64,000 bases of DNA from Actinomycetospora soli (GTDB lineage Bacteria; Actinomycetota; Actinomycetes; Mycobacteriales; Pseudonocardiaceae): the NCBI RefSeq assembly GCF_021026295.1, contig NZ_JAJNDA010000011.1, positions 62,001 to 126,000 on the forward strand, given 5' to 3'. The position numbers were made by a program, and so were the translations under genes. The notes below the pieces were generated by a model. That model was given only the letters and a program-made list of their open reading frames with translations. It ran no database searches and was not told where the DNA came from. Positions 5,834 through 55,655 of this stretch are shown in pieces; positions within the stretch are counted from its first letter, which is position 1; each line of letters starts with the position of its first letter.

Positions 5834-7462
5834 GTGGGTGACGAGCGGGGGCCGTGGATCGGCACGGCGTGGATGGTGTCCACGTCGGCGTCCGGGGGTC
5901 CGCGGCCGCGGGTGATGCTGACGTGGGCCGTCGGCGTCGTCCTCCTGCTCGGGGTGCTCGGCGCGGCCGGACCACGCACGATCAGCGCCGCGCTCCCGCT
6001 CCCGCCCGTCGACACCAGCGAGGTCGGGGCCACCGGCCGGGTCCCCGACGCCGGCCTCCCGCCCGCGCCGGCGGAGCTCCCGGGGGAGCCGCTGCTGCCG
6101 GGTGCGCCGCTGCCCGGCTCCGGCTCCGGCTCCGGGGTCCCCGAGACGATGCTCGCCGCCTACCGCGGCGCCGAGGCCTCGATGGGCGCCGCCGCCCCCG
6201 ACTGCCACCTCTCCTGGGCCCTGGTCGCCGGCATCGGCAAGGTCGAGTCGAGCCACGCCTACGGCGGCTCGCTGTCCTCCGACGGCACCACGACGAGCCC
6301 GATCCTCGGCCCGCAGCTGGACGGCACGAACGGCAACGCCGCGATCACCGACTCCGACGGCGGCGCGCTCGACCACGACACGGTCTGGGACCGCGCCGTC
6401 GGCCCCACCCAGTTCATCCCCACCAGCTGGCGCACCTACGGCGCGGACGGCAACGGCGACGGCACGGCCGACCCCGACAACGCCTTCGACGCCGCCCTGG
6501 CCACGGGCCGCTACCTCTGCGCGGGCGGCACCGACCTCGCCACGGCCTCCGGGCGGCACGACGCGGTCTTCCGCTACAACCACTCCGAGTCCTACGTCGC
6601 CACCGTCCTGCGGTGGGCCGACGCGTACGCCTCCGGTGCCCTGCCGGTGCCCGACACCGAGGGTGGCATCCCCGACGCCACCCTCGCCTCGGGCTCGCCG
6701 ACCCTCGCCGCCTTCCCGACGACGGGTGCGGGCGCGGCTCCCGCCGACGCCGGGTTGCTCGGCGGCAGCCCTGCTCCGGCCGCTCCGGGCGCCCCGGCGC
6801 CGTCGGCCGCGCCGGGTCTGCTGGACGGCACCCCGGTCGGGCCGTCGTCCTCCGCTGCGGCCGTGCCCGGCTCGCCGGCGGCGGCGCTCCCAGCCGCGAC
6901 GCCCGACTCGGCTGCCCTGCCCGCTGCGCCCGCTCTGCCTGCCGCGCCGCCCGTGCCCGCCGCGCCCTCGTCGTCGGCCGGCTCCTCGCCGCGGCCCACC
7001 TCGTCGACCGGCACCTCGAGCGGCACACCGTCGAAGCCCACCCCGCCGGCCTCGTCGAGCAGCACCCCGCCGGCCTCCACCACCCCGTCGACCACGTCGA
7101 CCACGCCGCCCGCGTCGACGACCACCACGCCGCCGAAGGCCACCCCCAGCGCGGCCGAGCGCTGCACGGCCTCGCTGCCCGCCGTCGCGAAGGCGTTCGG
7201 TGTGCCGGCCGCGGAGCTGAAGGCGGCGACGAGCCCGGGGCCGAAGACGGGTCAGCTGACCTGCACGGTGACGCGCGCCGGCAAGCCACTCGTCGTGGCG
7301 GTCGCGGCGACCACGGCCGATGCGCCGGCCCCGGTGGCCGGGGCAGGCGTCACGCGCAGCGTCGCCGGGGGACGGGTCGTGCTGACGGTGCCGACGACCG
7401 CGGACACCCCGCGGCCCGCCGCCACCGCTGCCCTGGCGAAGCTGGCCCCCGCCTGGGCCTGA
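5834..7462 (+). CDS. Secreted lytic murein transglycosylase (SLT-type) with low-complexity tail
   Basis: This cell-wall enzyme is predicted to cleave the peptidoglycan glycan strand between MurNAc and GlcNAc, leaving an anhydro end. It has 542 residues from the GTG at 5834. An N-terminal membrane or signal segment (MLTWAVGVVLLLGVLGAAGP) is followed by a Pro-rich linker, then the transglycosylase domain at about residues 100-270. In the domain, LSWALVAGIGKVESSHAYGG carries the catalytic Glu, and AVGPTQFIPTSWRTYGADGN and FRYNHSESYVATVL are typical of the MltB-like group. From about residue 275 to 440 the chain is Ala/Pro/Ser/Thr-rich and probably spans the wall; a Cys-containing C-terminal domain follows. 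The start is uncertain: ATG 5872 is an alternative. Confidence 0.85.
   Translation: MGDERGPWIGTAWMVSTSASGGPRPRVMLTWAVGVVLLLGVLGAAGPRTISAALPLPPVDTSEVGATGRVPDAGLPPAPAELPGEPLLPGAPLPGSGSGSGVPETMLAAYRGAEASMGAAAPDCHLSWALVAGIGKVESSHAYGGSLSSDGTTTSPILGPQLDGTNGNAAITDSDGGALDHDTVWDRAVGPTQFIPTSWRTYGADGNGDGTADPDNAFDAALATGRYLCAGGTDLATASGRHDAVFRYNHSESYVATVLRWADAYASGALPVPDTEGGIPDATLASGSPTLAAFPTTGAGAAPADAGLLGGSPAPAAPGAPAPSAAPGLLDGTPVGPSSSAAAVPGSPAAALPAATPDSAALPAAPALPAAPPVPAAPSSSAGSSPRPTSSTGTSSGTPSKPTPPASSSSTPPASTTPSTTSTTPPASTTTTPPKATPSAAERCTASLPAVAKAFGVPAAELKAATSPGPKTGQLTCTVTRAGKPLVVAVAATTADAPAPVAGAGVTRSVAGGRVVLTVPTTADTPRPAATAALAKLAPAWA
6713..6727 (+). repeat. Representative copy of an iterated 15-mer motif
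   Basis: TTCCCGACGACGGGT here lies inside the transglycosylase gene. The core TTCCCGACGRCGGG is also found at 14091, 41477, 44552, 49210 and 55393 (+ strand), and, as its complement, ending at 13488, 15682 and 31889. Close variants include 14663, 28261, 28856 and 52730 (TCCTGACGGCGGGT) and 31531 (GTCCCGACGGCGGGT). The copies fall in different reading frames and on both strands of unrelated genes. This single entry stands for the set; see the findings. Confidence 0.75.
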
Positions 7463-7464
7463 CC

Positions 7465-7658
7465 CGCGCAGCCGGCCGCAAGATCTCATCGCGCGGAGCG
7501 ATGTGCTCGCTGAGCGCGCACGTCGCTCCGCAGGTCTCGATCGTGGTCAGGGACGAGTCCCGGCGGCACCGACCGGCGGCCGCGCAGCCGGCTGCACGAT
7601 CTCGTCGCGCGGAGCGAAGTGCTCGCTCAGCGCGCACGTCGCTCCGCAGGTCCCGATC
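7465..7658. repeat. Tandem pair of 78 bp hairpin repeats in a convergent gap
   Basis: Copies at 7465-7542 and 7581-7658 (period 116 bp) are nearly identical. Each holds a large inverted repeat: arms GCGGAGCGA and TCGCTCCGC with further inner pairing (GTGC/GCAC), giving a stem of about 19 bp with two mismatches. They fill the 206 bp gap between the transglycosylase gene and the convergent rmlC-like gene, so they can serve as a two-way terminator. Differences between copies mostly fall outside the paired arms. Confidence 0.75.
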
Positions 7659-7668
7659 CTGCGCCGCC

Positions 7669-8286: not shown

Positions 8287-8601
8287 GGCGCCGGACCCTA
8301 TCGGCCGCGGGGTCGGGAGCACCGGGAGCACGGCGACGCCTGTGACCGGTCCGACCCCGTCGGGGCGCAGACACCGCGCCCCGCGCACGCGAGGATCGAC
8401 CACCTCCGGGTCACCCCTGCCCGCTCCGCCCGTCGTGGGACACCCCTCCCCGGCGCCCGGCGGCGACCACCGCCCCCTGCGGACCCGACCGTCCGCGGCC
8501 GAGGGCGCACCCGTCGTCACCAGCCCCACCCGTCGTCACCGACCGGCTCCGCCGCGGGGCACGGGTCCCACCACCGCGACCACGACACGTAGGAGGACCG
8601 C
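8287..8601. other. Intergenic gap upstream of malic enzyme
   Basis: These 315 bases between divergent genes have no credible coding frame. A short direct repeat, CACCCGTCGTCACC, occurs twice around 8508-8540, and TAGGAGGA at 8590-8597 is the ribosome binding site of the malic enzyme gene. I see no clear promoter boxes or riboswitch. Confidence 0.5.
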
Positions 8602-9855: not shown

Positions 9856-9889
9856 CCGGGATCACCGTCGACGAGCGGCACGAACATCC

Positions 9890-13316: not shown

Positions 13317-14348
13317 GTGATCGAGTTCTCCGACGTGCGCAAGGCCTATCCCGACGGCACGGTCGCACTCCAGTCCCTCTCGCTGACCGCCCGCGAGGGT
13401 GAGATCACGGTGCTGGTCGGCCCCTCGGGGTGTGGGAAGACGACCACGCTCCGGATGGTCAACCGCATGGTGGACCCGTCGTCGGGAACGATCCGGCTGG
13501 ACGGCGTCGACGTGTCCACCCAGGACCCCCCGACGCTGCGGCGCGGCATCGGCTACGTCATCCAGAACGCCGGGCTGTTCCCGCATCGCACGGTGCTGGA
13601 CAACGTCGCGACGGTGCCCGTCCTGCTCGGCCGCAGCCGCGCCGAGGCCCGCTCGGCGGCCGGGGAGCTGCTCGAACGGGTGGGTCTCGACCCGCGCGTC
13701 GGCAGCCGCTACCCCGCGCAGCTCTCGGGTGGTCAGCAGCAGCGCGTCGGCGTCGCCCGCGCGCTCGCCGGCGACGCCCCCGTGCTGCTCATGGACGAGC
13801 CGTTCTCGGCGGTCGACCCCGTCGTGCGCGCGGACCTGCAGGACGAGCTGCTGCGCCTGCAGTCCGAGCTCGGCCGCACGATCCTGTTCGTCACCCACGA
13901 CATCGACGAGGCCATCCGCCTCGGCGACATGGTCGCCGTGCTGCGCGTCGGCGGCACGCTCGCGCAGTTCGCGCCGCCCGCGGACCTGCTCGCGGCGCCG
14001 GTCGACGACTTCGTCGCCGGCTTCGTCGGCCGCGACCGCGGCTACCGGCGGCTCCAGTTCGTCGGGGCGGGCTCGCTGGCCCTGAGTTCCTTCCCGACGA
14101 CGGGCGACGGCTGGCTGCTCGTCGTCGACGACGACGGACGGCCCACGGGCTGGCGGCAGGGCGACGACCACGTGGCCCTCGGCACGGTCCACGAGGAGGG
14201 CGAGTCGTTGCGCAGCGCGCTCGACGCCGCGCTCAGCTCCCCCTCGGGCCGCGGGGTGGCCGTCGACGAGGACGGCAAGGTGATCGGTGGCATCGAGCCC
14301 GAGGCCGTGATCACCCTGCTGCACGCGTCGGCGGAGCCGGCCCGGTGA
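13317..14348 (+). CDS. opuCA: Osmoprotectant ABC transporter, ATP-binding subunit
   Basis: This 343-residue ATPase powers import of glycine betaine, choline, carnitine or a similar osmolyte. Walker A is GPSGCGKTTTLRMVN, the signature LSGGQQQRVGVARALA, Walker B VLLMDEPFSAVDP and the switch histidine is in FVTHDIDEA. The C-terminal about 90 residues form a CBS-like regulatory segment (VVDDDGRPTGW, VDEDGKVIGGIEPEA), as in OpuCA/ProV. GTG 13317 follows GGAGGAACCACTGCG. It is the first gene of a four-gene operon and overlaps the next gene by four bases (GTGA). The 95 bp upstream gap contains the likely promoter but no motif I can identify. Confidence 0.93.
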   Translation: MIEFSDVRKAYPDGTVALQSLSLTAREGEITVLVGPSGCGKTTTLRMVNRMVDPSSGTIRLDGVDVSTQDPPTLRRGIGYVIQNAGLFPHRTVLDNVATVPVLLGRSRAEARSAAGELLERVGLDPRVGSRYPAQLSGGQQQRVGVARALAGDAPVLLMDEPFSAVDPVVRADLQDELLRLQSELGRTILFVTHDIDEAIRLGDMVAVLRVGGTLAQFAPPADLLAAPVDDFVAGFVGRDRGYRRLQFVGAGSLALSSFPTTGDGWLLVVDDDGRPTGWRQGDDHVALGTVHEEGESLRSALDAALSSPSGRGVAVDEDGKVIGGIEPEAVITLLHASAEPAR

Positions 14349-14993: not shown

Positions 14994-15710
14994 GTGCTGT
15001 CGAGTCTCATCGCCTGGTTCGGCGCCCCTGCGCAGTGGTCGGCGGCGGCCGGCATCCCCACCCGCCTGCTCCAGCACCTCGGGTACACCGCCCTCTCCGT
15101 GCTGGTCGGCGCCGTCATCGCCGTCCCGGTCGGGCTCTACATCGGCCACACCGGCCGGGGGCGCCTGCTGGTGGTCGGCCTCGCGAACGGCCTGCGCGCG
15201 CTGCCCGAGCTCGGCGTCCTCGTGCTGTTCGTGCTGCTCCTCGGGCTGGGCCTCACCCCCGTGGTCCTGGCGCTGATGCTGCTCGCGATCCCGCCGCTGC
15301 TCGCCGGCACCTACGCCGGCATCTCCGGGGTCGACCCGGCCGCCGTCGACGCCGCGCGGGGCATGGGGATGACCGAACGGCAGATCCTGTTCGGCGTCGA
15401 ACTGCCCAACGCGCTGCCGCTCATGGTCGCCGGGCTGCGGACCGCGACCCTGCAGGTCGTCGCCACCGCCACGATCGCGGCGTTCGTCTCGCTCGGCGGC
15501 CTCGGCCGCTACATCGTCGACGGCCAGGCCCAGCGCGACTTCACGCAGATGGCCGGCGGCGCGATCCTCGTCGCCCTGCTCGCGATCGTGCTCGAGGTCG
15601 CGCTGCAGGGCGTGCAGCGGGCGGTCACGCCCGGCACCCGCGCCCGTCCCGCGTCCGACCCCGCCACACCCGCCGTCGGGAAGCCCGACACCGTCACTGC
15701 TGGAGGCTGA
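14994..15710 (+). CDS. opuCD: Osmoprotectant ABC transporter, second permease subunit
   Basis: This 238-residue partner permease has the same family features: NGLRALPELGVLVLFVLLLG in the membrane, and GVDPAAVDAARGMGMTERQI with LPNALPLMVAGLRTA as the coupling loop. The segment TIAAFVSLGGLGRYIVDG is typical of OpuCB/OpuCD. A Pro/Ala-rich C-terminal tail of about 25 residues is likely cytoplasmic and disordered. It starts with GTG one base after the preceding stop, and its TGA overlaps the ATG of the binding-protein gene. Two different permeases beside one ATPase and one lipoprotein is the normal OpuC arrangement. Confidence 0.92.
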   Translation: MLSSLIAWFGAPAQWSAAAGIPTRLLQHLGYTALSVLVGAVIAVPVGLYIGHTGRGRLLVVGLANGLRALPELGVLVLFVLLLGLGLTPVVLALMLLAIPPLLAGTYAGISGVDPAAVDAARGMGMTERQILFGVELPNALPLMVAGLRTATLQVVATATIAAFVSLGGLGRYIVDGQAQRDFTQMAGGAILVALLAIVLEVALQGVQRAVTPGTRARPASDPATPAVGKPDTVTAGG

Positions 15711-19800: not shown

Positions 19801-20760
19801 GATCGTCACGCCGGAGAAGTCCTCGGTGCCGAGCTTGCCCGAGCGCGCCTTGCGGACCATCTCCTCGTAGGCGGCCCAGAACTGCGCGAAGTTCATGTTC
19901 TCGCAGCCCTTGAGGGCCACGACCACCAGCGAGCGCGAGCCGTCCTTGCCCGGCAGGTCCATCGCCAGGCCGAGGTTCACGTGCCCCGGGTCGACGACGG
20001 CGGGCTTGCCCTTCGCGTCGGTGCCGTAGTGGCGGTTCATGTTCGGGAACTGCGCGAGCGCCCGGACCATCGCGTAGCCCAGCAGGTGGGTGAAGGAGAC
20101 CTTCCCGCCGCGGGTCCGCTTGAGGTGGTTGTTGATGACGATGCGGTTGTCGGCGAGCAGCTTCGCCGGCACCGCGCGCACGCTCGTCGCCGTCGGCAGC
20201 TCGAGCGAGGCCTGCATGTTCTTCGCGATCGCGTTCGCCGCGCCGCGCAGGGGCGTCACGCTCTCGTCCGACGACCCGCCGTCGGCGGCCTTGGCCGGCG
20301 TGGTGGACCCGGCGGCCGGCTTGCTCTCGCTCTTCGACCCGTTCTGCTGCTGCTCCTTCGGAGCGGGCTTCTCGGCCGCCTTCTGCGCGGTCGCGGAATC
20401 GGACCGGGCGGGCGCGCTGCCGTTCGACGACCCGGACGACCCGGCCGATCCCGACGACGCGGCGGAGCCGTTCGAGGAGGCCTTGGCCGCGCCACCGGTG
20501 CCCGACCCGCTCGAGCCGTTCTGCTCCCCGCGGCTCGCGCCGGAGTCGGCCGAGCCCGACGCGGAGGTGTCCGCGGACGCGCCGGTGGAGGACGCCGAGC
20601 TCGCCCCGGCGACGGAGGACCCGTCGTCGGGGGCGTAGTCGGCGAAGAACTCGTGCCAGGCGGCGTCGACGGAGTCCGGGTCGGCGAGGTACCGCTGGTA
20701 CATCTCGTCGACCAGCCACTCGTTGGGGCCGAACTGGGCTGCCGGGCTGCTCGTCGACAC
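16900..20760 (-). CDS. kgd: Multifunctional 2-oxoglutarate decarboxylase/dehydrogenase (E1-E2 fusion)
   Basis: This 1286-residue actinobacterial TCA-cycle enzyme decarboxylates 2-oxoglutarate with thiamine diphosphate. It provides E1 and, through its fused E2-like domain, succinyl transfer. The order is an N-terminal E1 helix ([20 protein letters not shown]), a Ser/Gly/Ala-rich linker at about 45-120, an E2 catalytic domain with [20 protein letters not shown] near residue 375, then the E1 core. In the core, [20 protein letters not shown] near residue 700 is the ThDP/metal motif, and [19 protein letters not shown] follows. The C-terminus ([20 protein letters not shown]) is typical. I chose GTG 20760 because it starts the conserved N-terminus; a TTG six codons upstream is possible. 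A DUF6104 gene follows. Confidence 0.95.
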
Positions 20761-28454: not shown

Positions 28455-28861
28455 CCACGATCGCCGACCTCCTCGCCGCCGCCCGCGCCCGCCTGACGCG
28501 GCTCGAGCCGACCGACGCGGCCCGCGTGCTCGAGCGGGGCGGCCGGCTCGTCGACATCCGGCCCGGCTGGCAGCGGGTCGCCGAGGGCGAGGTGCCCGGC
28601 GCCGTCGTCATCGAGCGCAACCACCTGGAGTGGCGCCTCGACCCCACGTCGGACGCCCGCATCCCGGAGGCGACCGACCACGACGTGCCGTGGGTGGTGC
28701 TGTGCTCCGAGGGCTACACGTCCTCGCTGGCCGCCGCGGCCCTCCAGGACCTCGGCATCCATCGGGCCACCGACGTCGTCGGCGGGTTCCGTGCCTGGCA
28801 GGACGCCGGCCTCCCCACCGAGCCCGGCACGGGGGAGCCGCCGGAGTACGCCCGTTCCTGA
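28451..28861 (+). CDS. Rhodanese-domain sulfurtransferase
   Basis: This 136-residue single-domain rhodanese carries its catalytic loop in VVLCSEGYTSSLAAAALQDLG: the active-site Cys accepts a sulfane sulfur as a persulfide and passes it to a thiol. The N-terminal LVDIRPGWQRVAEGEVPGAV and C-terminal VVGGFRAWQDAGLP are standard family segments. It overlaps the cysteine dioxygenase gene by four bases (GTGA). A dioxygenase plus a sulfurtransferase suggests disposal or rerouting of excess cysteine sulfur. The stop codon lies in TTCCTGACGGCGGGT, a copy of the iterated motif. Confidence 0.92.
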   Translation: MTTIADLLAAARARLTRLEPTDAARVLERGGRLVDIRPGWQRVAEGEVPGAVVIERNHLEWRLDPTSDARIPEATDHDVPWVVLCSEGYTSSLAAAALQDLGIHRATDVVGGFRAWQDAGLPTEPGTGEPPEYARS

Positions 28862-28884
28862 CGGCGGGTCGGGTCGGGTCGGGG

Positions 28885-30383: not shown

Positions 30384-32729
30384 TCACAGGCGCGCAGCGC
30401 ACCGCACGATCGCGTCCGCATCGATGTCGTGCAGCGCGTGCGCGGACGCCAGGTCGGAGGACTGCCCGAAGCCGCTGACGCCGAGGTGCTCCGCCCGCAC
30501 GCCGTGCACGCCCGCGAGGAACGCCAGCGTGTGCGGGTGCCCGTCGAGCACCGTGACCAGCGGCGCCGCACGGTCGACCGGGAAGCAGGCGTCGAGGATC
30601 CACGTCGGGTCGCCGGTGTCGGCGCGGCGGGCCCGCACGGCGCGGAACAGCCGGTCGGCACTGGTCACGACGACGACGTCCGCCGGGACCCCGAGAGCCC
30701 CCAGCCGGTCCGCCGCGGCCAGCGCGTTCGGCACGGTCGCGCCCATCGCCGCGATCGTCACCCGCGGCGCCCCGGGGGCGCGCCGCAGGACGTACCCGCC
30801 CGCCACGACCTGCCGCCGCCGCTCCTCGCGGGCGGCGGGGTCCTCGGGGACGGCCGCGAGCGACTGGTCCACCGGTGCCGTCGAGAGCCGCAGGTACGAC
30901 GACGACCCGTCGGGCCGGCCGAGGCGACCGAGCCCGTCGAGCAGGCACCACGTCACCTCGATCGCGAACGCCGGCTCGAACGCCACGCAGCCCGGCTGCT
31001 CCAGGCCGATCGACGGCGTGGTGATCGACTGGTGCGCGCCGCCCTCGGGTGCCAGCGACACCCCGGACGGCGTCCCGACCAGGATCGACTGCCCGCCCGC
31101 GTACATCCCGAACGACCACGGCTCCAGCGCGCGCGAGACGAAGGGGTCGTAGAGCACCCCGATCGGCAGCAGCGGCTCGCCCCAGCGCGACCAGGTCGCC
31201 CCGAGCTCCCCGAGCAGTCCGACCAGGTTCGTCTCGGCGATGCCCAGCTCGATGTGCTGCCCGGTCGGCCGTTCGCGCCAGTGCAGGATCGTCTCGGCGT
31301 CGTCGTCGAACCAGTCCCGGCGCTCCGAGGCCGCCCACGAGCCGACCTTGTTCAGCCAGCCGCCGAGGTTGGTCGAGCTCGCCACGTCCGGCGAGCAGGT
31401 CACGACCCGGCGCGCCGCCTCCGGCGCGGACCGGGTCAGGTCGAGCAGGGCCCGGCCCAGGGCCTGCTGGGTGTTGCCCGTCCCCGACGGCGGGCGGCCC
31501 AGGTCGGTCGGGACGCTCACCGCGGGGGCCGTCCCGACGGCGGGTCGGTCGAGTCGGGTGGCGACGGTCGCGCACAGGTCGGCGGCGGCACCGCCGCGCG
31601 GCAGCGGCGCCCACGGCTCGTCGAGGTCGGCCCCGACACGTGCGGCGAGCTCGCGCATCTGCGGCTCGGAGAGCAGCGAGCTGTGGTTCTGCGGGTGGCC
31701 CTGCGTCGCGAGCCCGTAGCCCTTGACGGTGTACGCGAAGATCACCGTGGGGCGGGTGTCGTCGATGCGGGCGTAGGCGTCGAGCAGGGCGCCGAGGTCG
31801 TGGCCGCCGAGGTTGCGGATGGCGGCGTGGACCCCGTCGTCGTCGATCGTCTCCAGCAGCGCCGCGAGCCGCGGCCCGTCGTCGGGAAGGCCCTGGGGGA
31901 GCCGTTCCCGCAGCTGGGTGGGGGTGCAGCGCAGGAGGCGCTGGTACTCCGGGTTGGTCATCGTGTCGATGCGCCGGCGCAGCGCGTCGCCGCCCTCGCG
32001 GGCGAACAGCTCGGTCAGGATCCGCCCGTACTTGACGGTGACGACCTGCCAGCCGGCCGCCTCGAACAGGCCCTGCAGGCGGGTGGCGGAGATGTCGGGG
32101 ACGACGCGGTCGAGCGACTGGCGGTTGAAGTCGACGATCCAGGTGATCTCGCCGAGCTCGCGGACCATGGGGTCGAGCACGGCCTCCCAGACCGCGCCCT
32201 CGTCGAGTTCCGCGTCGCCGACCAGCGAGAACTGGCGTCCGGTGCCGGCGCGGCCGCTGACCCCGTCGGCGTACCGGCGGGCGATCGCACCCCAGATCGG
32301 GGCGGTCGCGCCGATCCCGACCGAGCCCGTGGAGTAGTCGACGGGGTCGGGGTCCTTCGAGCGCGACGGGTAGGACTGCAGCCCGCCCTGCTCGCGCAGC
32401 GTCGTCAGGAACCGGGGGTCCAACCGCCCCAGCAGGTGGTTGATCGCGTGCAGCACCGGCGAGGCGTGCGGCTTGACCGAGACCCGGTCCTCGGCGCGCA
32501 GCGCCCCGAACCAGAGCGCGGTCATGATCGAGACGATGGACGCCGACGAGGCCTGGTGTCCGCCCACCTTGAGCCCGCCCGGGTTGGGCCGCACGCGGTT
32601 GGCGTGGTCGACGATCGCCGTCGCGAGCCAGAGCACGCGGCGTTCCACGTCGGCGAGGGCGTCCAGGGTGGGCGTGCTGGTCGTCGTCGTGGTGGTCGTC
32701 GTGGTCGGCTCGGTGACGCGGGCGGTCAT
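30384..32729 (-). CDS. 2-oxoacid (pyruvate/2-oxobutyrate) dehydrogenase E1, MdeB-like
   Basis: This 781-residue thiamine-diphosphate enzyme is of the homodimeric AceE type, shorter than AceE (about 890). The ThDP-binding motif is LVGDAELDEGAVWEAVLDPM followed by WIVDFNRQSLDRVVP. GGLKVGGHQASSASIVSIMT near the N-terminus and YAGGQSILVGTPSGVSLAPE with GGAHQSITTPSIGLE in the second half are conserved in E1 proteins. In Pseudomonas, MdeB is a similar E1 acting on 2-oxobutyrate from methionine, with an Lrp-type regulator MdeR. Here an Lrp gene is divergent at 32933, but no methionine lyase, E2 or E3 gene is nearby. The N-terminus has an unusual run of about ten Thr. ATG 32729 follows GGAG. Confidence 0.85.
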   Translation of the reverse strand: MTARVTEPTTTTTTTTTSTPTLDALADVERRVLWLATAIVDHANRVRPNPGGLKVGGHQASSASIVSIMTALWFGALRAEDRVSVKPHASPVLHAINHLLGRLDPRFLTTLREQGGLQSYPSRSKDPDPVDYSTGSVGIGATAPIWGAIARRYADGVSGRAGTGRQFSLVGDAELDEGAVWEAVLDPMVRELGEITWIVDFNRQSLDRVVPDISATRLQGLFEAAGWQVVTVKYGRILTELFAREGGDALRRRIDTMTNPEYQRLLRCTPTQLRERLPQGLPDDGPRLAALLETIDDDGVHAAIRNLGGHDLGALLDAYARIDDTRPTVIFAYTVKGYGLATQGHPQNHSSLLSEPQMRELAARVGADLDEPWAPLPRGGAAADLCATVATRLDRPAVGTAPAVSVPTDLGRPPSGTGNTQQALGRALLDLTRSAPEAARRVVTCSPDVASSTNLGGWLNKVGSWAASERRDWFDDDAETILHWRERPTGQHIELGIAETNLVGLLGELGATWSRWGEPLLPIGVLYDPFVSRALEPWSFGMYAGGQSILVGTPSGVSLAPEGGAHQSITTPSIGLEQPGCVAFEPAFAIEVTWCLLDGLGRLGRPDGSSSYLRLSTAPVDQSLAAVPEDPAAREERRRQVVAGGYVLRRAPGAPRVTIAAMGATVPNALAAADRLGALGVPADVVVVTSADRLFRAVRARRADTGDPTWILDACFPVDRAAPLVTVLDGHPHTLAFLAGVHGVRAEHLGVSGFGQSSDLASAHALHDIDADAIVRCAARL

Positions 32730-41127: not shown

Positions 41128-42381
41128 GTGATCGACGCGGCCCTGCACGACCTCTGGCGCTCCCTCGACACCGACCGCCCCGCCCCGGAGCCGCGCTGGA
41201 CCGGCGACTCCACCGGCCTCGCCTGCCCGCTGCCCGTCGAGGCGCTCGCCCTCGGCGCGGTCGCCGCGGCGGCCGGTGCCGCCGGACACCGCACGCCGGA
41301 GATCGACCTCGCCCGCGTCGGCAGCTCCTTCCGCGCCGACCAGCTGCTGCGGGTCGACGGCACGACGCCGGCCGGCTTCGCGCCGCTCTCCGGGTTCTGG
41401 CCGGCCGCGGACGGGTGGGTCCGCACGCACGCGAACTACCCCCACCACCGCGCCCGGCTCCTCGATGCCCTGGGCGTTCCCGACGACGGGGTGGGCGCGG
41501 CCGTCGCCGCGCGTCCGGCGCTCGAGGTGGAGGAGCTCGTCGTCGGGACGGGAGGGATCGCGGTCGCCGTCCGGGACCGGCCGACCTGGGCCGCGAGCGA
41601 GCAGGGGCGGGCCGTGGCCGCCGAGCCGCTGGTCGGGGTGCGTCGCGTCGGGGCGACCGCACCCGACGTCCGGAACCCGCGGGTGCTGGACCTGACCCGG
41701 GTGATCGCCGGACCGGTCGCGACGCGTGCGCTGGCGTTCTTCGGTGCCGACGTGCTGCGCGTCGACCCGCCGTCGATGCCCGAGCTGCCGGCGCAGCACC
41801 TCGACACCGGGCTCGGCAAGCGCACGACGGTCCTCGACGCGTCCGACCTGCGGCTGCGGGACCTGGCGGACACCGCGGACGTCGTCGTGACCGGCTACCG
41901 GCCCGGCGCGCTCGACCGGTACGGCCTGGGCGCGGAGGACCTGCTGGCGCGGCGGCCCGGCCTCGTCGTCGTGCAGCTCGACGCGTGGGGGTGGACCGGG
42001 CCGTGGGCGGGGCGGCGCGGGTTCGACTCGATCGTGCAGGCGGCGAGCGGGATCGCCGTCGCGTGCGGCACCGACGGACGGCCGGGCGCACTGCCGGCGC
42101 AGGCGCTCGACCACGCGACCGGCTACCTCGTCGCCGCATCCGCGCTGCTCGGGCTCGCGGAGCGGTCGACGCGCGGCGGCTCGATCCGCGAGCTCGCCCT
42201 GGCACGGACGGCCGAGTGGCTGTGGCGGCACCCGGAGCTGGTCACGGACGCGCCGGCGGTCGAGCCGGTGCGGCAGCGGCTCGGGGTGGTCGAGGTGCCG
42301 CCGCCGGTGTTCGGCGGGGAGTGGGCGGCGCCGGCCCACGAGCTGGGCGCCGACGCGCCGGAGTGGCGCTCACCCCGATGA
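41128..42381 (+). CDS. CaiB/BaiF-type CoA transferase with permuted segment order
   Basis: This 417-residue class III CoA transferase moves CoA between carboxylic acids. The recognisable large-domain start, NPRVLDLTRVIAGPVATRAL, appears only at about residue 185, followed by GFDSIVQAASGIAVACGTDG with the catalytic-type Asp. The first about 180 residues (FWPAADGWVRTHANYPHHRA, RPTWAASEQGRAVAAEPLVG) look like the segment that normally comes after the large domain. The order is therefore C-terminal part first, as in a circular permutation. Length is near normal. The substrate is unknown. GTG 41128 is 62 bp from the divergent FAD-oxidase start. A hairpin follows at once. Confidence 0.78.
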   Translation: MIDAALHDLWRSLDTDRPAPEPRWTGDSTGLACPLPVEALALGAVAAAAGAAGHRTPEIDLARVGSSFRADQLLRVDGTTPAGFAPLSGFWPAADGWVRTHANYPHHRARLLDALGVPDDGVGAAVAARPALEVEELVVGTGGIAVAVRDRPTWAASEQGRAVAAEPLVGVRRVGATAPDVRNPRVLDLTRVIAGPVATRALAFFGADVLRVDPPSMPELPAQHLDTGLGKRTTVLDASDLRLRDLADTADVVVTGYRPGALDRYGLGAEDLLARRPGLVVVQLDAWGWTGPWAGRRGFDSIVQAASGIAVACGTDGRPGALPAQALDHATGYLVAASALLGLAERSTRGGSIRELALARTAEWLWRHPELVTDAPAVEPVRQRLGVVEVPPPVFGGEWAAPAHELGADAPEWRSPR

Positions 42382-42445: not shown

Positions 42446-44314
42446 CTACCGCCGCGCCGCCCGCTTCTCGGCGCGCACGATGTTCATCACCGCCTGGATG
42501 AGCCCGAGGTGCGTGAACGCCTGCGGGAAGTTGCCCAGGTGCCGCCCGGAGTGCGGGTCGATCTCCTCGGCGTAGAGGTGCAGCGACGACGCGGCGCCCA
42601 GCAGCTTCTCGCACAGCGCGGTCGCCCGGTCCACCTCGCCGATGACCGCCAACGCCGACACGAGCGCGAACGAGCAGATCGTGAACGTGCCCTCCTCGCC
42701 GGAGAGCCCGTCGTCGGTGTCCTCGACGAGGTAGCGCAGCACCAGGTCGTCCTCGGTGAGTTCGTCGGCGATCGCGAGGACGGTCGCGCGGCAGCGCGGG
42801 TCGTCGGGGGAGAGGAACCCGACGATCGGCATGAGCAGCAGCGACGCGTCGAGGCCGGTGGTCGCGTAGTGCTGGCAGAGGACGCCGCGGTCGTCCACGG
42901 CGTGGGTCAGCACGTCCTCGCGGATCTCCTCCGCCGCGCGCCGCCAGCGGTCCTCCCGCTTCTCGTCGCCGCGCAGGGCCGCGAGCCGGGCGCCGCGGTC
43001 GGCCGCGAGCCAGCACGCGATCTTCGACGTCGTGAAGTGCTGCGGCTCGCCGCGCACCTCCCACGGCCCGCGGTCGGGGCCGCGCCAGTTCTCCAGGGCC
43101 GCCTCGACCTGCGTGACGACGATCGACCACAGCCGGTCGTCGAGCCGGTCGCGGCTGCGGACGTACTGGTAGATCGCACCCACGGCGGCGCCCCAGACGT
43201 CGTGCTGGGCCTGGTCGTACGCGCCGTTCCCGATCCGCACCGGGTACGCGCCCTCGTACCCGTCGAGGTGGCCGAGGACCTCCTCGTCGAGCCGGGCGCG
43301 CCCGTCGACGCCGTACATGATCTGCAGGTGACCGGCCGCCGCCTCGGCCGCCTCGGCGACGAAGTAGAAGAAGTCGTTGGCCTCCCAGTCGAAGCCCAAC
43401 GCGTAGAGCGCCCACAGCGCGAGCGCCGAGTCGCGGATCCACGAGTAGCGGTAGTCCCAGTTGCGCTCGCCGCCCGGGGTCTCGGGCAGCGAGGTCGTCG
43501 CGGCGGCCGCGATCGCGCCCGTCGGGGCGAACGTCAGGCCCTTCAGCGTCAGCGCCGACCGCTGCAGGTAGGGCAGCCACCGGTGGTCGGGGAAGTCGCC
43601 GCGGTCGAGCCAGTGCCGCCAGTGGTGCTCGGTCCACGTGAGCCGCTCGAGGGCCTCGTCGACGTTGGCGGGCGGGGCGTGCTCGCTCCACGAGAGCGCG
43701 ACGAACCGCCACTCGCCCTCCTTGAGCAGCGTCCGCGACGTGGCGAGCGAGCCCTCGAAGCCGATGTTCGTGTCGGTCGTCAGCAGCAGCTCCGAACCGC
43801 CGCCGGACGCGCGGGCCGCGCGGTACCCGCCGTCGGGATAGCTCCACTGCGCGGGCTCACGGCCGTAGTCGAAGACCGGCGCGCACTCCATCCGCAGCTG
43901 CACCTGCCCCGAGATGCAGCGGGCGACGCGGAGCAGGACGTGGTCGGCGTCGTAGTCGGTGGGGGCGCGCCGGTGCGAGCCCGAGCGCTCCGTCTCGTGG
44001 TGCCACGGCCCCATGAGCAGCACGTCGAGGACCTGCAGCCAGCCCGACCGCGTGCACCACGTCGTCTCGAGCACCATCGTGCCGGGCACGTAGCGGCGTG
44101 CGGCCGGGACGTCGGCGCCGTCGGGGTGCAGCCGGAAGGTGCCCGCGTCGCGGTCGAGGATCGCCCCGAACACGCTCGGCGAGTCCATCCGCGGCAGGCA
44201 CAGCCACTCGACGGCCCCGTTCGGGGCGACCAGTGCGGTCGTCTCGCAGTCGGAGAGGAACCCGTAGTCGGCGATCGGCGGGAAGGCGCTCCCGGCCCGC
44301 GGCTCGACGTTCAT
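42446..44314 (-). CDS. Glycoside hydrolase family 15 protein (trehalase/glucoamylase-like)
   Basis: This 622-residue cytoplasmic alpha-glucoside hydrolase is probably a GH15 trehalase, as in mycobacteria, although glucoamylase activity is possible. The N-terminal beta domain begins FPPIADYGFLSDCETTALVA. The (alpha/alpha)6 barrel has ERNWDYRYSWIRDSALALWA with the substrate-binding RNWDYR...RD motif, YEGAYPVRIGNGAYDQAQHD, LSGEEGTFTICSFALVSALA with a conserved acidic pair, and GRHLGNFPQAFTHLGLIQA at the end. I chose ATG 44314, the usual family start, because the alternative GTG 44359 lies inside an inverted repeat (44356-44371). It has no signal peptide and is divergent from a siderophore-interacting protein. 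Confidence 0.9.
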   Translation of the reverse strand: MNVEPRAGSAFPPIADYGFLSDCETTALVAPNGAVEWLCLPRMDSPSVFGAILDRDAGTFRLHPDGADVPAARRYVPGTMVLETTWCTRSGWLQVLDVLLMGPWHHETERSGSHRRAPTDYDADHVLLRVARCISGQVQLRMECAPVFDYGREPAQWSYPDGGYRAARASGGGSELLLTTDTNIGFEGSLATSRTLLKEGEWRFVALSWSEHAPPANVDEALERLTWTEHHWRHWLDRGDFPDHRWLPYLQRSALTLKGLTFAPTGAIAAAATTSLPETPGGERNWDYRYSWIRDSALALWALYALGFDWEANDFFYFVAEAAEAAAGHLQIMYGVDGRARLDEEVLGHLDGYEGAYPVRIGNGAYDQAQHDVWGAAVGAIYQYVRSRDRLDDRLWSIVVTQVEAALENWRGPDRGPWEVRGEPQHFTTSKIACWLAADRGARLAALRGDEKREDRWRRAAEEIREDVLTHAVDDRGVLCQHYATTGLDASLLLMPIVGFLSPDDPRCRATVLAIADELTEDDLVLRYLVEDTDDGLSGEEGTFTICSFALVSALAVIGEVDRATALCEKLLGAASSLHLYAEEIDPHSGRHLGNFPQAFTHLGLIQAVMNIVRAEKRAARR

Positions 44315-44377: not shown

Positions 44378-45166
44378 ATGGTCGTCCGCAATGCACCCGT
44401 GATCTCCCCGCAGGCCCACGACGACGTCGAGCCGGTGCGGGTCGAGGTCGTCGGCTGGGAGGACCTGACGCCGCGGATGCGCCGCGTCCGCCTCGCCGGC
44501 GAGGTCGACGGGCTGCCGGTCTCCGGCCCCACCGACCACGCCAAGCTCTTCTTCCCGACGGCGGGTCGCGCGGATCCGGAGCGCCCGGAGATCGGCCCGC
44601 GGGGGCTGGTGGCTCCGGCACCCGGACGACCGCGTGCGTACCGGGAGTACACGCTGCGGTCGGTGGCCGACGGGGTCGTCGAGGTCGACTTCGTGCGGCA
44701 CGGGCACGGGCTCGCCGGGACGTGGGTGGAGGACCCGGGCGGCGCGCTCTGGCTCTACGGCCCGCGGTCGTCGCTGCGGCACGACCCGCGCGACTGGTAC
44801 CTGCTCGGCGGGGACGAGACGGCGCTGCCGGCCCTGGGTCGGTGGCTGCGGTCGTTGCCGTCCGACGCCGTGGGCACCGTGTTCGTCGAGGTCGCGGACG
44901 CTGCGGAGGAGCAGGTGCTGGACGGTCCGTCGGGGATGTCGGTCGTGTGGCTGCACCGCGACGGCGCCGAGCCCGGGACGACGTCGCTGCTCGGCGACGC
45001 GGTGGAGGGCTGGACCCGCCCCGAGGGGGACGGCCTCGTCTGGATGGGCGCCGAGGCGTCGGCCCTGCGCCCCGTGCGGCGGCGCCTGCGCGACCTGCTG
45101 CCCACCGAGTGGATCGACCTCGACGGGTACTGGCGCCGGGGTGTGGAGGGCACGGGCCTGGGCTGA
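44378..45166 (+). CDS. Siderophore-interacting protein (ferric-siderophore reductase, ViuB-like)
   Basis: This 262-residue flavoprotein releases iron from imported ferric siderophores by reduction. The FAD-binding motif REYTLRSVADGVVEVDFVRH (RxYTxR) and GLAGTWVEDPGGALWLYGPR match SIP proteins. WYLLGGDETALPALGRWLRS begins the NAD(P)H domain, and LVWMGAEASALRPVRRRLRD with LDGYWRRGVEG closes it. The length is typical. No siderophore biosynthesis or ABC transporter genes are adjacent, and I see no iron box upstream. ATG 44378 lies next to the inverted repeat at 44356. Confidence 0.92.
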   Translation: MVVRNAPVISPQAHDDVEPVRVEVVGWEDLTPRMRRVRLAGEVDGLPVSGPTDHAKLFFPTAGRADPERPEIGPRGLVAPAPGRPRAYREYTLRSVADGVVEVDFVRHGHGLAGTWVEDPGGALWLYGPRSSLRHDPRDWYLLGGDETALPALGRWLRSLPSDAVGTVFVEVADAAEEQVLDGPSGMSVVWLHRDGAEPGTTSLLGDAVEGWTRPEGDGLVWMGAEASALRPVRRRLRDLLPTEWIDLDGYWRRGVEGTGLG

Positions 45167-47161: not shown

Positions 47162-48835
47162 ATGGCCCGCCGCGACCTCGCCTCGACCCTCCGCGACCTC
47201 GACGGGCAGAGCTACGGGCGGTACCGGTCGCTGGTCGGGTCGTGGGACATCGACGACGGCACGCTCGAGGTCGTCCGCGTCCAGGCCGACCCGTTCGCCC
47301 CGCCGTCCCGGGTCCGCGTCACCCTGCCCGGGGCCGCCCCCGACGAGCTGACCGGCACGGCCGACCGCCGCCGCGCCCACGCCACGTTCCTGCTCCGCCG
47401 CCTGCACCGGCAGCTGCGCGGCACGCCCCTGCAGCTCGACGCCGGCGGTCAGGAGGTCCTCGACCGCACCGCCGGGCGCGTGCTCGCCGACGGCACCGTC
47501 GTCGTCGAACTCGGTGCGCCCCTCCCCGGGCCGAAGCGCCACATCCTCGGCCGGGAGGCCGCGACGCTGCTGGGGGAGACGCTGCCGGCGGCGGTCGCCA
47601 CCCTGCGCTGGGATGCCCTTCCCGACGACGAGCGTGGTGCGGCGACGCGGTTCGCCGCGGTCGTCGAGGACGCCGTCGCGCTGCGGGCCGCGCTGGCCGA
47701 CCACGGACTCGTCGCGTTCGTCGCCGACGGTGCCGTGCTGCCGCGGCGCTCCGGCATCGACGACCGCCCGCTCGAGCGCGCCACGGCCTTCGCGGCCCCC
47801 GAGGGCCTCCGGGTGACGCTGGCGACGCCGAACGCGGGACCCGTCGTCGGGATGGGGATCCCGGAGGGCGTGACGCTGATCGTCGGCGGCGGCTACCACG
47901 GCAAGTCGACGCTGCTGCGCGCGATCGAGGCGGGCGTGCACGACCACGGGCCCGGCGACGGGCGCGAGCAGGTCGTCGCGCGCGCCGACGCGGTGAAGGT
48001 GCGGGCGGAGGACGGCCGCAGCGTGGTGCGCAGCGACGTGTCGGCCTTCGTCTCGCACCTGCCGTCGGGCGAGCCGACCGACGACTTCTCGACGACGAAC
48101 GCCTCCGGCTCGACCAGTCAGGCCGCGTCGATGGTGGAGGCGGTCGAGGCCGGGGCGGGCGTGCTGCTGGTCGACGAGGACACGTCGGCCACCAACATGA
48201 TGATCCGCGACGCCCGGATGCAGCAGCTCATCGCGACCGAGCCGCTCGTGCCGTTCGTGGAGCGCATCCGCCCGCTGCACGCCGAGCGCGGGGTGTCCTC
48301 GGTGCTGGTGATGGGCGGGTCGGGCGACTACCTCGGGGTGGCCGACACCGTGATCATGATGTCCTCGTACGTCGCGAGCGAGGTGACCGCGCGGGCGCAC
48401 GAGATCGCCGCGGCCACCCCGGGCCGGACCCAGGAGCACACCGGGTTCCCCGTGGTCGCCGCCCGGGTGGTCGACCCGGGCTCGGTGGACCCGTCGGGGC
48501 GGCAGGGCAAGCGCCGCATCGCCGCGCGGGGGACCGACACGCTGACCTTCGGCGAGGACGACGTCGACCTGTCCGCCGTGGAGCAGGTGGTCGACCGGTC
48601 GCAGGTGACCGGGATCGGCCGGGCGATGGCGCTGCTGGGCGACCACGTGCTCGACGGCGGGATCACGCTCGCCGAGGCGCTGGACCTCGTCGACGCGCAG
48701 ATCGCCCGCGAGGGGGTGGACGCGCTGCGCGACGGCCCCCGGGACCCCGCGGACCTCGCCCTGCCCCGCCGGCACGAGATCGCGGCCGCGCTCAACCGGC
48801 TCCGCTCGCTGCGCGTGCGCTCCCTGCAACGATGA
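47162..48835 (+). CDS. ABC-ATPase domain protein (PF09818-like)
   Basis: This 557-residue soluble protein has an unusual single ABC-type ATPase. Walker A is LIVGGGYHGKSTLLRAIEAG, the signature-like NASGSTSQAASMVEAVEAGA, and Walker B VLLVDEDTSATNMMIRDAR. VSSVLVMGGSGDYLGVADTV follows. The N-terminal 220 residues are specific to this family (DGQSYGRYRSLVGSWDIDDG). Homologs occur from bacteria to trypanosomes, where MRB1590 binds RNA in mitochondrial editing complexes, so an RNA-related role is possible but unproven. It has no membrane partner. ATG 47162 is 44 bp from the divergent membrane-protein gene. Confidence 0.9.
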   Translation: MARRDLASTLRDLDGQSYGRYRSLVGSWDIDDGTLEVVRVQADPFAPPSRVRVTLPGAAPDELTGTADRRRAHATFLLRRLHRQLRGTPLQLDAGGQEVLDRTAGRVLADGTVVVELGAPLPGPKRHILGREAATLLGETLPAAVATLRWDALPDDERGAATRFAAVVEDAVALRAALADHGLVAFVADGAVLPRRSGIDDRPLERATAFAAPEGLRVTLATPNAGPVVGMGIPEGVTLIVGGGYHGKSTLLRAIEAGVHDHGPGDGREQVVARADAVKVRAEDGRSVVRSDVSAFVSHLPSGEPTDDFSTTNASGSTSQAASMVEAVEAGAGVLLVDEDTSATNMMIRDARMQQLIATEPLVPFVERIRPLHAERGVSSVLVMGGSGDYLGVADTVIMMSSYVASEVTARAHEIAAATPGRTQEHTGFPVVAARVVDPGSVDPSGRQGKRRIAARGTDTLTFGEDDVDLSAVEQVVDRSQVTGIGRAMALLGDHVLDGGITLAEALDLVDAQIAREGVDALRDGPRDPADLALPRRHEIAAALNRLRSLRVRSLQR

Positions 48836-49166: not shown

Positions 49167-49982
49167 TCACCCCACGCGCAGCGGGCGCTCCACGGGGCGC
49201 ACGGGGGTCTTCCCGACGACGGGTGCCGCGGCCCGGCCGTGGCCCGTGGCCTCCAGGGCGCGCCGGATGCGGGCCGCCACCGCGGTGAGAAGGGCGGGCA
49301 GCTCTCCCGGCCCCGTGCCGTCGTCCCGGACGACGAGGCTGAGCGCGGCGGCCACGTCGCCGCGCCGGTCGTGCACGGGCACCGCGACCGCCATGGCGTC
49401 GTCGGTGATCTGCCCGCGGAGCACCGCGACCCCGTCGCGCCGGACCTGGGCGAGGCGCACCCGGAGCAGCGCGGGGTCGACCTGCGTGCGCGCGGTGTAG
49501 CGGGCGAGCGGACGCGCGAGGACCTCGTCGACCTCGGCGGGATCGGCGTGGGCGAGCAGCACGATCCCGGTGCCCGTGGCGTGCAGCGGCCAGCGGTCGC
49601 CCACGCGGCTGGACACCTGGGCGGTGCGGCGCGACCGCAACGCCTCGACGTAGACCACCTCGTGCCCGTCGCGCACGCCCAGGTGGACGTTGCCGCCCGT
49701 GACGCGGTGCAGGTCGTCGAGATGGGGGAACGCGATCTCGCGCAGACCGAGGCCGCGCGGGGCGAGGGCGGAGAGCTCGAGCAGGCGCAGGCCGACCGAG
49801 AAGCGGCCGTCCTCGCCGCGCTCGAGGGCGCCCCAGGCCTGCAGCTCGCCGACGAGCCGGTGGGTCGTCGAGAGCGACAGGCCGGCGCGGCGCCCGATCT
49901 CGGAGAGGCTCAGCGCGCGGTGATCGGGCCCGAAGGCGCCGAGCACGTCGAGGACGCGGCTCGCGGCGGTGCGGTGGGGCAT
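49167..49982 (-). CDS. IclR-family transcriptional regulator
   Basis: This 271-residue regulator has an N-terminal winged helix-turn-helix (SRVLDVLGAFGPDHRALSLS, EIGRRAGLSLSTTHRLVGEL) and a C-terminal effector domain (HLGVRDGHEVVYVEALRSRR, PLHATGTGIVLLAHADPAEV, GQITDDAMAVAVPVHDRRGD). IclR proteins usually control catabolism of aromatic or other organic acids. It is divergent, across 62 bp, from an amidohydrolase-P450-transporter series that it probably controls. A 12 bp palindrome at 50017 is the candidate site. The last 25 residues are a Pro/Arg-rich extension. Confidence 0.92.
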   Translation of the reverse strand: MPHRTAASRVLDVLGAFGPDHRALSLSEIGRRAGLSLSTTHRLVGELQAWGALERGEDGRFSVGLRLLELSALAPRGLGLREIAFPHLDDLHRVTGGNVHLGVRDGHEVVYVEALRSRRTAQVSSRVGDRWPLHATGTGIVLLAHADPAEVDEVLARPLARYTARTQVDPALLRVRLAQVRRDGVAVLRGQITDDAMAVAVPVHDRRGDVAAALSLVVRDDGTGPGELPALLTAVAARIRRALEATGHGRAAAPVVGKTPVRPVERPLRVG

Positions 49983-50028: not shown

Positions 50029-50044
50029 ATGATGGGGTGGGGTC

Positions 50045-54644: not shown

Positions 54645-54662
54645 CGACCCTATGCTCGACGG

Positions 54663-55655
54663 ATGCGCACCGTCCCCGTGGTCCTCGTCGCGGGCCACCT
54701 CGGGGTGGGGAAGTCGTCGCTGGTCAACCATCTGCTGCGGCACGCCGACGCGACACGGATCGGGGTCGTGGTCAACGACTTCGGGGCGCTCGGGATCGAC
54801 GCCATGCTGGTGGCGGGCCAGGCGTCCTCGGTGACGGCCTTGTCGAACGGCTGCCTGTGCTGCGTCACCGACGCCGACGGGCTCTCCGGGGTGCTCGCGG
54901 ATCTCGTGGCGCCGGCGACCGGGCTCGACCTCGTCGTCGTGGAGGCCAGCGGCCTCGCCGAACCCCGTGAGCTGGTGCGGCTGCTGCTGGCCTCGCCCGA
55001 CCCGCACGCGGTGTACGGCGGTCTCGTCGCCGTCCTCGACGCCTGCGCCCCCGATCTCGACCATGCCCGCCTGGCCGACCTCGCCGTCGTGAACGGGCTG
55101 GACCGCTGCGGGGCCGCGGGGGTCGAGGCCGTCCGCGCGGTCGCGCCGGGCGCGGTCGTCGGGACCTCGCACGGCGCGCTCGACCCGGCGCTGCTCGTCG
55201 ACCCGGTGCGCCGCGAGCAGCCCGCCCAGCTGACGCTCGACGCCCTGCTCCGCGAGGCCGACGGCGAGCACCCGCACGTCGCGGCCTCCAGCGTGTCGTT
55301 CACCTCGGAGCGCCCGCTCGACGCGCGCCGGCTCGCCGCGTTCCTGGAGTCGGGCCCCGCGGGGGTCGTCCGGATGAAGGGCATCGTGCGCCTTCCCGAC
55401 GGCGGGGGTGAGGGCTTCGCCGAGACCCCGGACGTCTGGGAGGTGCAGACGGTCGGCACCGCGATCCGGGTCCGCCCCGCACCGGGACGGTTGACGACCC
55501 GCGGCGCCCGCCTGGTCCTCATCGGCACCGACCTGGACGAGCCGGCGCTGCGTGCTGCGCTGGAGGGGTGCGCGGTGGGCGAGGACGAGCCCGCGCCGTC
55601 CGAGCACGCCGCCCTGGCCCTGACCCGGTACCGGATCGACCTGACGTCGGCGTGA
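54663..55655 (+). CDS. CobW/COG0523-family GTPase (metal chaperone-like)
   Basis: This 330-residue G3E GTPase has the P-loop VAGHLGVGKSSLVNHLLRHA, the metal-binding CxCC motif in LSNGCLCCVTDADGLSGVLA and the switch LVVVEASGLAEPRELVRLLL. The smaller C-terminal CobW_C domain starts near WEVQTVGTAIRVRPAPGRL. COG0523 proteins insert or deliver Zn, Co or Ni. The metal here is unknown, and no Zur-like palindrome or cobalamin gene is visible next to it. ATG 54663 lies 18 bp from the divergent CoA transferase start, so both promoters lie within or close to coding sequence. Confidence 0.9.
   Translation: MRTVPVVLVAGHLGVGKSSLVNHLLRHADATRIGVVVNDFGALGIDAMLVAGQASSVTALSNGCLCCVTDADGLSGVLADLVAPATGLDLVVVEASGLAEPRELVRLLLASPDPHAVYGGLVAVLDACAPDLDHARLADLAVVNGLDRCGAAGVEAVRAVAPGAVVGTSHGALDPALLVDPVRREQPAQLTLDALLREADGEHPHVAASSVSFTSERPLDARRLAAFLESGPAGVVRMKGIVRLPDGGGEGFAETPDVWEVQTVGTAIRVRPAPGRLTTRGARLVLIGTDLDEPALRAALEGCAVGEDEPAPSEHAALALTRYRIDLTSA

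Follow-up and report, generated by a model that had tools for sequence, protein, structure and literature searches.

The DNA analyzed here is a 64-kb window of the genome of Actinomycetospora soli (contig NZ_JAJNDA010000011.1, positions 62,001 to 126,000), in which a short word recurs on both strands inside genes of different kinds. We defined the word as the 14-mer TTCCCGACGRCGGG, which extends to the 15-mer TTCCCGACGRCGGGT. The window holds nine exact 14-mers, where 0.016 would be expected under a third-order Markov model and 0.02 from dinucleotide shuffles; with up to two mismatches allowed, there were 42 matches against 6.3 expected. The initial annotation had listed these nine copies and stated that well under one was to be expected, and we confirmed both. 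The six plus-strand copies start exactly where it had placed them, and the minus-strand copies occupy 13475-13488, 15669-15682 and 31875-31888, the last having been assigned an end one base too far, at 31889. Positions of the variants were less exact: two of the four starts given for TCCTGACGGCGGGT were right and two were off (true starts 14664 and 52721), and five of the six positions given for the shorter TTCCCGAC miss the true start by 1-9 bases, three of the six lying on the minus strand. In all, TTCCCGAC occurs 17 times in the window (10 plus, 7 minus). The G+C content, put at 72%, was measured as 74.3%. The copies do encode different residues, as had been noted; eight of the nine fall inside called genes, where several frames and both strands are represented. 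Genes were called with our own simple codon-usage caller, so their boundaries are approximate.

Table 1. Copies and one-mismatch variants of the word in the 64-kb window, with the called genes in which they lie.
Feature	Positions	Strand	Context
Exact 15-mer TTCCCGACGACGGGT	6713..6727	+	Inside called gene 5834-7462 (+), SLT_2 transglycosylase domain
Exact 15-mer	13474..13488	-	Antisense in ABC-transporter ATPase gene 13317-14348 (+)
Exact 14-mer, last base C	14091..14105	+	Inside ABC-transporter ATPase gene 13317-14348 (+)
Exact 15-mer (GGC)	15668..15682	-	Antisense near 3' end of permease gene 14994-15710 (+), BPD_transp_1
Variant TTCCTGACGGCGGGT, one mismatch	28855..28869	+	Crosses end of called gene 28451-28861 (+)
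Variant GTCCCGACGGCGGGT, one mismatch	31531..31545	+	Antisense in gene 30384-32729 (-), transketolase/PDH E1-like
Exact 14-mer, last base C	31874..31888	-	Sense in gene 30384-32729 (-), transketolase/PDH E1-like
Exact 14-mer, last base G	41477..41491	+	In CoA-transferase III gene 41128-42381 (+)
Variant ATCCCGACGGCGGGT, one mismatch	43825..43839	-	In called gene 42446-44314 (-)
Exact 15-mer (GGC)	44552..44566	+	In siderophore-interacting-protein gene 44399-45166 (+)
Variant ATCCCGACGACGGGT, one mismatch	47839..47853	-	Antisense in called gene 47162-48835 (+)
Exact 15-mer	49210..49224	+	Antisense in IclR-type regulator gene 49167-49982 (-)
Exact 14-mer, last base G	55393..55407	+	Outside called genes

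The word was then counted in the window's own genome (G000, 6.52 Mb) and in 17 Actinomycetospora congeners. G000 contains TTCCCGACGRCGGG 519 times (257 on the plus and 262 on the minus strand) and the reversed word, used as a control, not once; the genome-wide iterated signal that had been suspected from the window is thus real and far from a Markov expectation. In 456.6 kb of G000, the 15-mer was found 35 times, compared with 0.028 expected under a fourth-order Markov model. Exact TTCCCGACGRCGGGT was abundant in five species (440 copies in G000, 375 in G001, 386 in G003, 400 in G007 and 408 in G015), rare in three (21 in G010, 11 in G014, whose genome is 59% complete, and 37 in G016), and nearly missing from the other ten, with one copy in G006 and none in nine. 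This corresponds to 59.5-69.2 exact copies per Mb in the rich species and 3.1-5.3 per Mb in the low ones. With up to one mismatch, the rich five had 1203, 1072, 1278, 1070 and 1095 sites in the same order, the low three had 148, 79 and 203, and the other ten had 2-13, while the reversed control gave 0-2. Beyond the genus, we counted the 15-mer in 132 genomes that belong to other genera in the same family and order: 20 had one or two copies and the rest had none. Out of 394 genomes drawn class-wide, with no congener among them, 25 besides the window's own had a single copy each. The motif is therefore confined to part of the genus Actinomycetospora. A viral collection yielded 90 stretches with the 15-mer; among the 80 listed, 79 hold one copy and one holds two. 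These viral matches look like chance in a huge collection, as none of those listed carries the word iterated.

We built a midpoint-rooted tree from the 2-oxoglutarate dehydrogenase gene only, with 15 Actinomycetospora rows, several of them partial, and two Pseudonocardia; G004, G008 and G014 were left out. The rich five formed one clade (100/100), and the low-copy G010 and G016 paired (99/99) as sister to it, with a joint node at 97/97. Eight motif-free or near-free species fell in a separate group. In 437 kb of motif-free G017, the only motif-free species sampled for dialects, no 10- or 12-mer was comparably enriched. The window itself encodes a multi-domain 2-oxoglutarate dehydrogenase protein (16900-20760, minus strand).

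Single-substitution counts from 456.6, 834.6 and 438.4 kb of three rich species, with positions counted from 0, revealed a near-strict core of T at 1, C at 2, GACG at 5-8 and C at 10. At position 9, R is favored over C or T, and positions 0 (T, then G and A), 3, 4, 11 and 14 are tolerant. The word is not a perfect palindrome, having asymmetric TT and T edges and with R preferred over the palindromic T at position 9, which is found in only 3, 3 and 3 copies compared with 35, 66 and 39 with R. Selection for a hairpin was considered and set aside: double changes in CCCG/CGGG numbered four that keep pairing (all one pair) and one that breaks it in 1.73 Mb, which is too few to speak for a hairpin in RNA or single-stranded DNA.

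Uptake sequences, which are best known from two proteobacterial families, the Neisseriaceae (DNA uptake sequence, DUS) and the Pasteurellaceae (uptake signal sequence, USS), offer a comparison for how the excess depends on mismatches. Relative to G017, the word was in excess at least 150-fold at zero mismatches and at least 250-fold at one, both being lower bounds since the G017 counts were zero and a floor of 0.5 per Mb was used. The excess was 21-23-fold at two mismatches, 1.6-1.8-fold at three and about 1 from five upward. DUS/USS over-representation is likewise reported to fall gradually with mismatch load (PMC1939737); the graded excess in the rich species has the same shape, and in this respect the word resembles an uptake sequence.

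Most copies are genic. Exact 14-mers lay inside genes in 32 of 44 cases in G000, 74 of 95 in G003 and 31 of 47 in G007, in DNA that is 89-91% coding, leaving 12, 21 and 16 outside, so that intergenic density is 2.4-5.2 times genic density. All six frames were occupied in each of the three species, with sense/antisense ratios of 19/13, 40/34 and 17/14 (76/61 in total), and positions along genes appear even. The favored sense frame reads x-P-D-(D/G)-G, which would suit surface loops. Protein constraint, dismissed as a cause when the window was annotated, does not produce these numbers. Synonymous codon shuffling within genes (40 shuffles) gave a mean of 0.4-1.2 sense and 0.25-0.93 antisense copies, or about 1-2 coding copies per species sample against the 31-74 seen, so codon and dipeptide usage are no explanation. 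The very high G+C of the genome and the reading of the word as PDDG or FPTTG might suggest a compositional or codon-usage artefact, an idea that these shuffles refute and to which we attach practically no credence; moreover, G017, a member of the same genus sampled alike, has no copy in 437 kb, and the reversed word stays at 0-2 per genome even with one mismatch.

The intergenic excess would be the natural property of a regulatory or transcription-termination site, particularly as it is highest between convergent genes. Pooling the strict-core sites that were not wholly genic in the three species, we counted 24 in the 24.0 kb that separates convergent genes, 48 in the 85.5 kb separating co-directional genes and 12 in the 50.2 kb separating divergent ones, with one site at a stretch edge left unclassed. 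A promoter element is not what these counts describe, since the regions between divergent genes were the poorest intergenic class. A few inverted pairs could form hairpins (in locus L132 near 7892, in L088 near 15205, and three more about 16-24 bp apart in G003), but only two inverted pairs within 60 bp were present among 344 strict-core sites of the three species, and most copies are genic and in both orientations. We consider a regulatory or terminator function very unlikely.

To follow gain and loss, we aligned sites between species. The 154 rich-to-rich directed alignments came from six comparisons (30, 16, 37, 29, 20 and 22) that are reciprocal and not independent. The motif was identical in 66 of the 154, compared with 198 of 835 control positions, a contrast that was strong for G000-G003 (19/30 vs 44/149) and weak for G003-G007 (9/29 vs 36/143); the choice of sites by exact query works against this conservation result, not for it. 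In 102 ungapped alignments, per-base mismatch was 0.00-0.02 in GACG, 0.32 at R and 0.20 at position 0, whereas the flanks differed at 0.167 and 0.142 and control positions at 0.11. With flanks diverging more than controls and the core held, the DNA around the sites is under weaker constraint, but the word is kept. Gaps of at least eight bases over the motif were found in 2 of 154 alignments (0/30, 0/16, 0/37, 2/29, 0/20 and 0/22, the two being G003-G007) compared with 6 of 835 controls, and gaps of any length within the motif in 20 of 154 compared with 76 of 835. Among the rich species, then, the word is gained and lost by substitution and rarely by insertion, a point-mutation origin like that of uptake sequences, with long gaps about as rare as in controls. 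In the window, at 13474..13488 congeners carry ungapped, substituted versions, and at 14091..14105 the final T is found in the four rich congeners aligned.

When the same sites were aligned to motif-poor species, the motif was identical in 0/13, 0/19 and 0/12 cases in G017 and in 1/9, 1/18 and 0/10 in G016. Gaps inside the motif interrupted 53 of these 81 alignments, compared with 79 of 536 controls. That figure, the clade-specific high copy number and the two gapped G003-G007 alignments out of 29 are what a tiny mobile or REP-like element spreading by insertion could leave behind. Long gaps give no clean-insertion signal, either between rich species or against G016 and G017 (at least eight bases in 2 of 81, controls 4 of 536), and the flanks of 34 copies share little outside the word. 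Repetitive extragenic palindromic (REP) elements and REPINs resemble the word in copy number and in being hairpin-capable, but they spread by insertion and are extragenic, whereas the word changes by substitution and is mostly genic. An insertion element therefore seems to us extremely improbable.

No replichore polarity was detected among 171 sites in 835 kb of G003, about half of that sample being one 438-kb block (largest split bias 0.064, permutation mean 0.128, P 0.98). Counts per 20 kb were near Poisson, with mean/variance of 4.10/5.14 in G003, 3.89/3.67 in G000 and 3.86/2.50 in G007. Three analogies had been offered from the window alone, namely HIP1, uptake sequences and recombination hotspots. 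The uptake type fits best, and a polar recombination or segregation type is disfavored because there is no strand polarity. Chi, the FtsK-orienting polar sequences (KOPS) and architecture-imparting sequences are, like the word, short chromosomal words read by DNA-handling motors, but they are strand-polarized by replichore, and restriction to part of a genus would be atypical for them.

We give about an even chance to the reading that TTCCCGACGRCGGGT serves one Actinomycetospora clade as a sequence-specific mark of 'self' in DNA exchange, on the analogy of DUS and USS. Fragments bearing the word would be preferred by a receptor of the import machinery, which may be a minor pilin of a Tad pilus feeding ComEA-ComEC. 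Imported fragments would replace their chromosomal counterparts by homologous recombination, so that word-bearing alleles would win, and the word would accumulate by point mutation where protein and promoter constraint permit, a process of molecular drive. On this reading the rich species would undergo natural transformation.

The resemblance to published uptake sequences is broad. It includes hundreds to more than 1000 copies, mostly genic with an intergenic excess and on both strands; a graded excess with mismatch load and spread by point mutation (PMC1939737); a strict core with tolerant edges and a clade-wise distribution (PMC3630211); and the absence of a genome-wide orientation bias (PMC2346458). 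Uptake sequences have 65% of their copies in genes where 86% of the DNA is coding (PMC2346458), and a point-mutation origin with molecular drive has been described for them (PMC1939737). The word differs in belonging to an actinobacterium of 74% G+C, in its length of 15 bp, in being sparser, and in its setting of a Tad pilus with N-methyl pilins not found in 18 genomes. Published words also favor one orientation in reading frames, and those of Pasteurellaceae are biased to gene ends (PMC2346458); here sense and antisense copies number 76 and 61, and positions along genes look even.

The word is scarce in recently acquired DNA, as judged from one prophage and one 438-kb block of G003. The prophage region, a 40-kb section of the complete chromosome of G003 (C1 3,002,913-3,042,912), contained one site where about eight were expected; among its proteins are members of the terminase, portal, head protease, major head, tape-measure and tail families. 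In the 438-kb block, genes unmatched in congeners had four sites in 68.6 kb and matched genes had 67 in 331.7 kb (Poisson P 0.002), 'unmatched' being relative to sampled stretches of four congeners and the prophage being included. Genes matched only in rich species had 23 sites in 93.4 kb, and those also matched in G016 or G017 had 44 in 238.3 kb. Four of 40 full 20-kb stretches of G003 were motif-empty, one of them being the prophage, one its neighbor and one L056; the fourth, the empty G003:C1 1-20000, at the chromosome start, is 65.6% G+C and 35% called coding.

The main rival to an exchange signal is a chromosome-maintenance word like HIP1 (GCGATCGC), which a repair, replication, methylation or nucleoid protein would bind genome-wide and which selection within the cell would keep. 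Most of the footprint would fit this equally well, namely copies both within and between genes, turnover by substitution, and conservation of single bases. HIP1 too is a genome-wide iterated word of unsettled function with quick gain and loss between relatives, and rapid clade-specific gain has been published for HIP variants (PMC4390886). The core CCCGACGNCGGG is nearly palindromic, as might suit a protein that binds as a dimer. HIP1 itself, though, is 8 bp long, perfectly palindromic and associated with orphan methyltransferases, and the same source ties HIP words, as short palindromes, to methyltransferase sites, whereas the word here is 15 bp long and asymmetric and has the palindromic T at position 9 only rarely. 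The scarcity in the prophage and in unshared genes would, under such a maintenance function, be merely a matter of time. We consider this rival unlikely, though deserving of serious attention.

Drive of the kind proposed for an exchange signal, which needs no polarity, would operate equally on a recognition word for cell-to-cell transfer other than competence, either for an FtsK-like conjugative translocase (TraB-type clt repeats) or as a packaging signal. Actinomycetes are known to conjugate by double-stranded DNA translocases that read short repeats. When one mismatch is allowed, each rich genome has roughly 1070-1280 sites, far more than known clt-like repeats, and we judge this route improbable.

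For uptake as the means of exchange, candidate machinery is present. Of 12 Actinomycetospora genomes searched for ComEC, 11 had it, in rich, low and empty species alike, the exception being 83% complete; in G000 the ComEC gene comes after an SLBB-HHH ComEA gene, forming a ComEA-ComEC operon. An unbroken, single match to a Tad-type secretion ATPase was present in 14 of 15 near-complete genomes. In G000 the ATPase gene stands in a Tad operon with two T2SSF genes, a DUF4244 pilin gene and a ParA/MinD-like gene, the last from weak matches below the cut-offs. The Flp_Fap pilin was found in 0 of 18 genomes. Another actinobacterium, M. luteus, has comEA and comEC, and its transformation requires the Tad/Flp pilus (PMC6370729).

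In the draft genome of G016 (A. endophytica), the Tad ATPase gene is broken at the Walker A codons, and its two parts are separated by about 57 kb. Within the intervening element (G016:C9, about 1,815,237-1,872,584), a serine-type integrase is the first gene called. An integrase-bearing element may thus split the ATPase, or the draft could be misassembled. Mobile elements are known from published work to insert into competence genes (PMC4774983).

The low-copy species also differ in how their copies are distributed over mismatch classes. In whole-genome counts, the ratio of one-mismatch to exact copies was 1.7-2.3 in rich and 4.5-6.2 in low species. A neutral-decay model of the rich spectrum fitted G016 at d 0.24, predicting an excess per Mb of 3.4, 19.6, 57 and 109 at 0-3 mismatches where 3.2, 16.1, 75 and 147 were observed; the model is crude and d was fitted, not independently measured. 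The G016 spectrum is thus close to neutral decay of a rich-type spectrum, and we infer that the low-copy sister species lost the process that maintained the word.

Put together, these observations suggest, tentatively and with somewhat less assurance than exchange signaling as such, an uptake sequence outside the Proteobacteria, a 15-bp word of self-recognition that would have evolved inside a single genus and would be read by a Tad-pilus/ComEA-ComEC machine. The sister clade would be in a state after loss, the word decaying about neutrally, with the A. endophytica Tad ATPase carrying an integrase element in its Walker A codons. To our knowledge, no DNA uptake sequence has been described before outside the Proteobacteria.

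Several results weigh against this proposal or against exchange by uptake altogether. ComEC and the Tad ATPase occur in motif-free species too, and possession of this machinery is therefore no predictor of the word. None of 18 genomes had PF07963 N-methyl pilins, which makes a ComP-type receptor unlikely; the pilin of the Tad operon belongs to DUF4244, and the pilin searches identified no dedicated receptor. G010 is equally low in copies, yet its genes for the Tad ATPase, TadB and TadC are open, and the break in the G016 ATPase can account for no more than one of the low genomes. The G016 spectrum comes from 310 kb with raw counts of 1, 5, 26 and 123 at 0-3 mismatches, and weak ongoing drive would fit it as well. 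The frequent gaps at the motif in comparisons with G016 and G017 keep the first gains from being read cleanly there. The word has one strict-core site (up to one mismatch) per about 5 kb, below Neisseria or Haemophilus, whose uptake sequences stand at about one per kb. Not every gap in its distribution is foreign, as the empty stretch adjoining the prophage (L079) holds ATP-synthase-like and mutase genes. Finally, in a literature search that left most subscription papers outside, no publication was found linking the genus with natural competence. The same search retrieved nothing relevant on the genus with repeats or motifs, or on uptake sequences together with Actinobacteria and natural transformation, and the 14-mer, in four spellings, did not appear in the text covered.

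The origin of uptake sequences has so far been argued from old, saturated systems. Here a single genus contains rich, low and empty species, so that origin, maintenance and loss can be put to direct test. Should the word mark DNA exchange, it would also point to natural transformation, so far unsuspected, in an actinomycete family that is a source of natural products and difficult to engineer. Should it be something other than an uptake sequence, it is still a strong chromosomal signal, conserved base by base, that lacks an explanation.

Other repeats were seen alongside the word. G000 (nine stretches) and G003 have a further repeat, longer than the word and built around GACAGCAACGACGCTTTCCTGCCA, which in many cases is accompanied by an inverted arm; its core AACGACGCTT occurs 21 times in 457 kb. 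A. termitidis (seven stretches) has a hairpin repeat with arms AACGGCACTCTCGC / GCGAGAGTGCCGTT, and A. endophytica (11 stretches) has a hairpin repeat TAGGTGCGCT...GTGAGCAGTAATTGACGC..., whose TAG may serve as the stop codon of the preceding gene. One hairpin family is thus common to G000 and G003, and A. termitidis and A. endophytica have others. In the window, a tRNA gene at 61111-61182 (minus strand) was the sole Rfam match at the gathering threshold. Among the loci of other genera, each of at most 24 kb, the strongest repeated words were in Saccharopolyspora, where AGGAAGGTTCCC / GGGAACCTTCCT is present in 4-7 spaced copies per 20-24 kb in four stretches.

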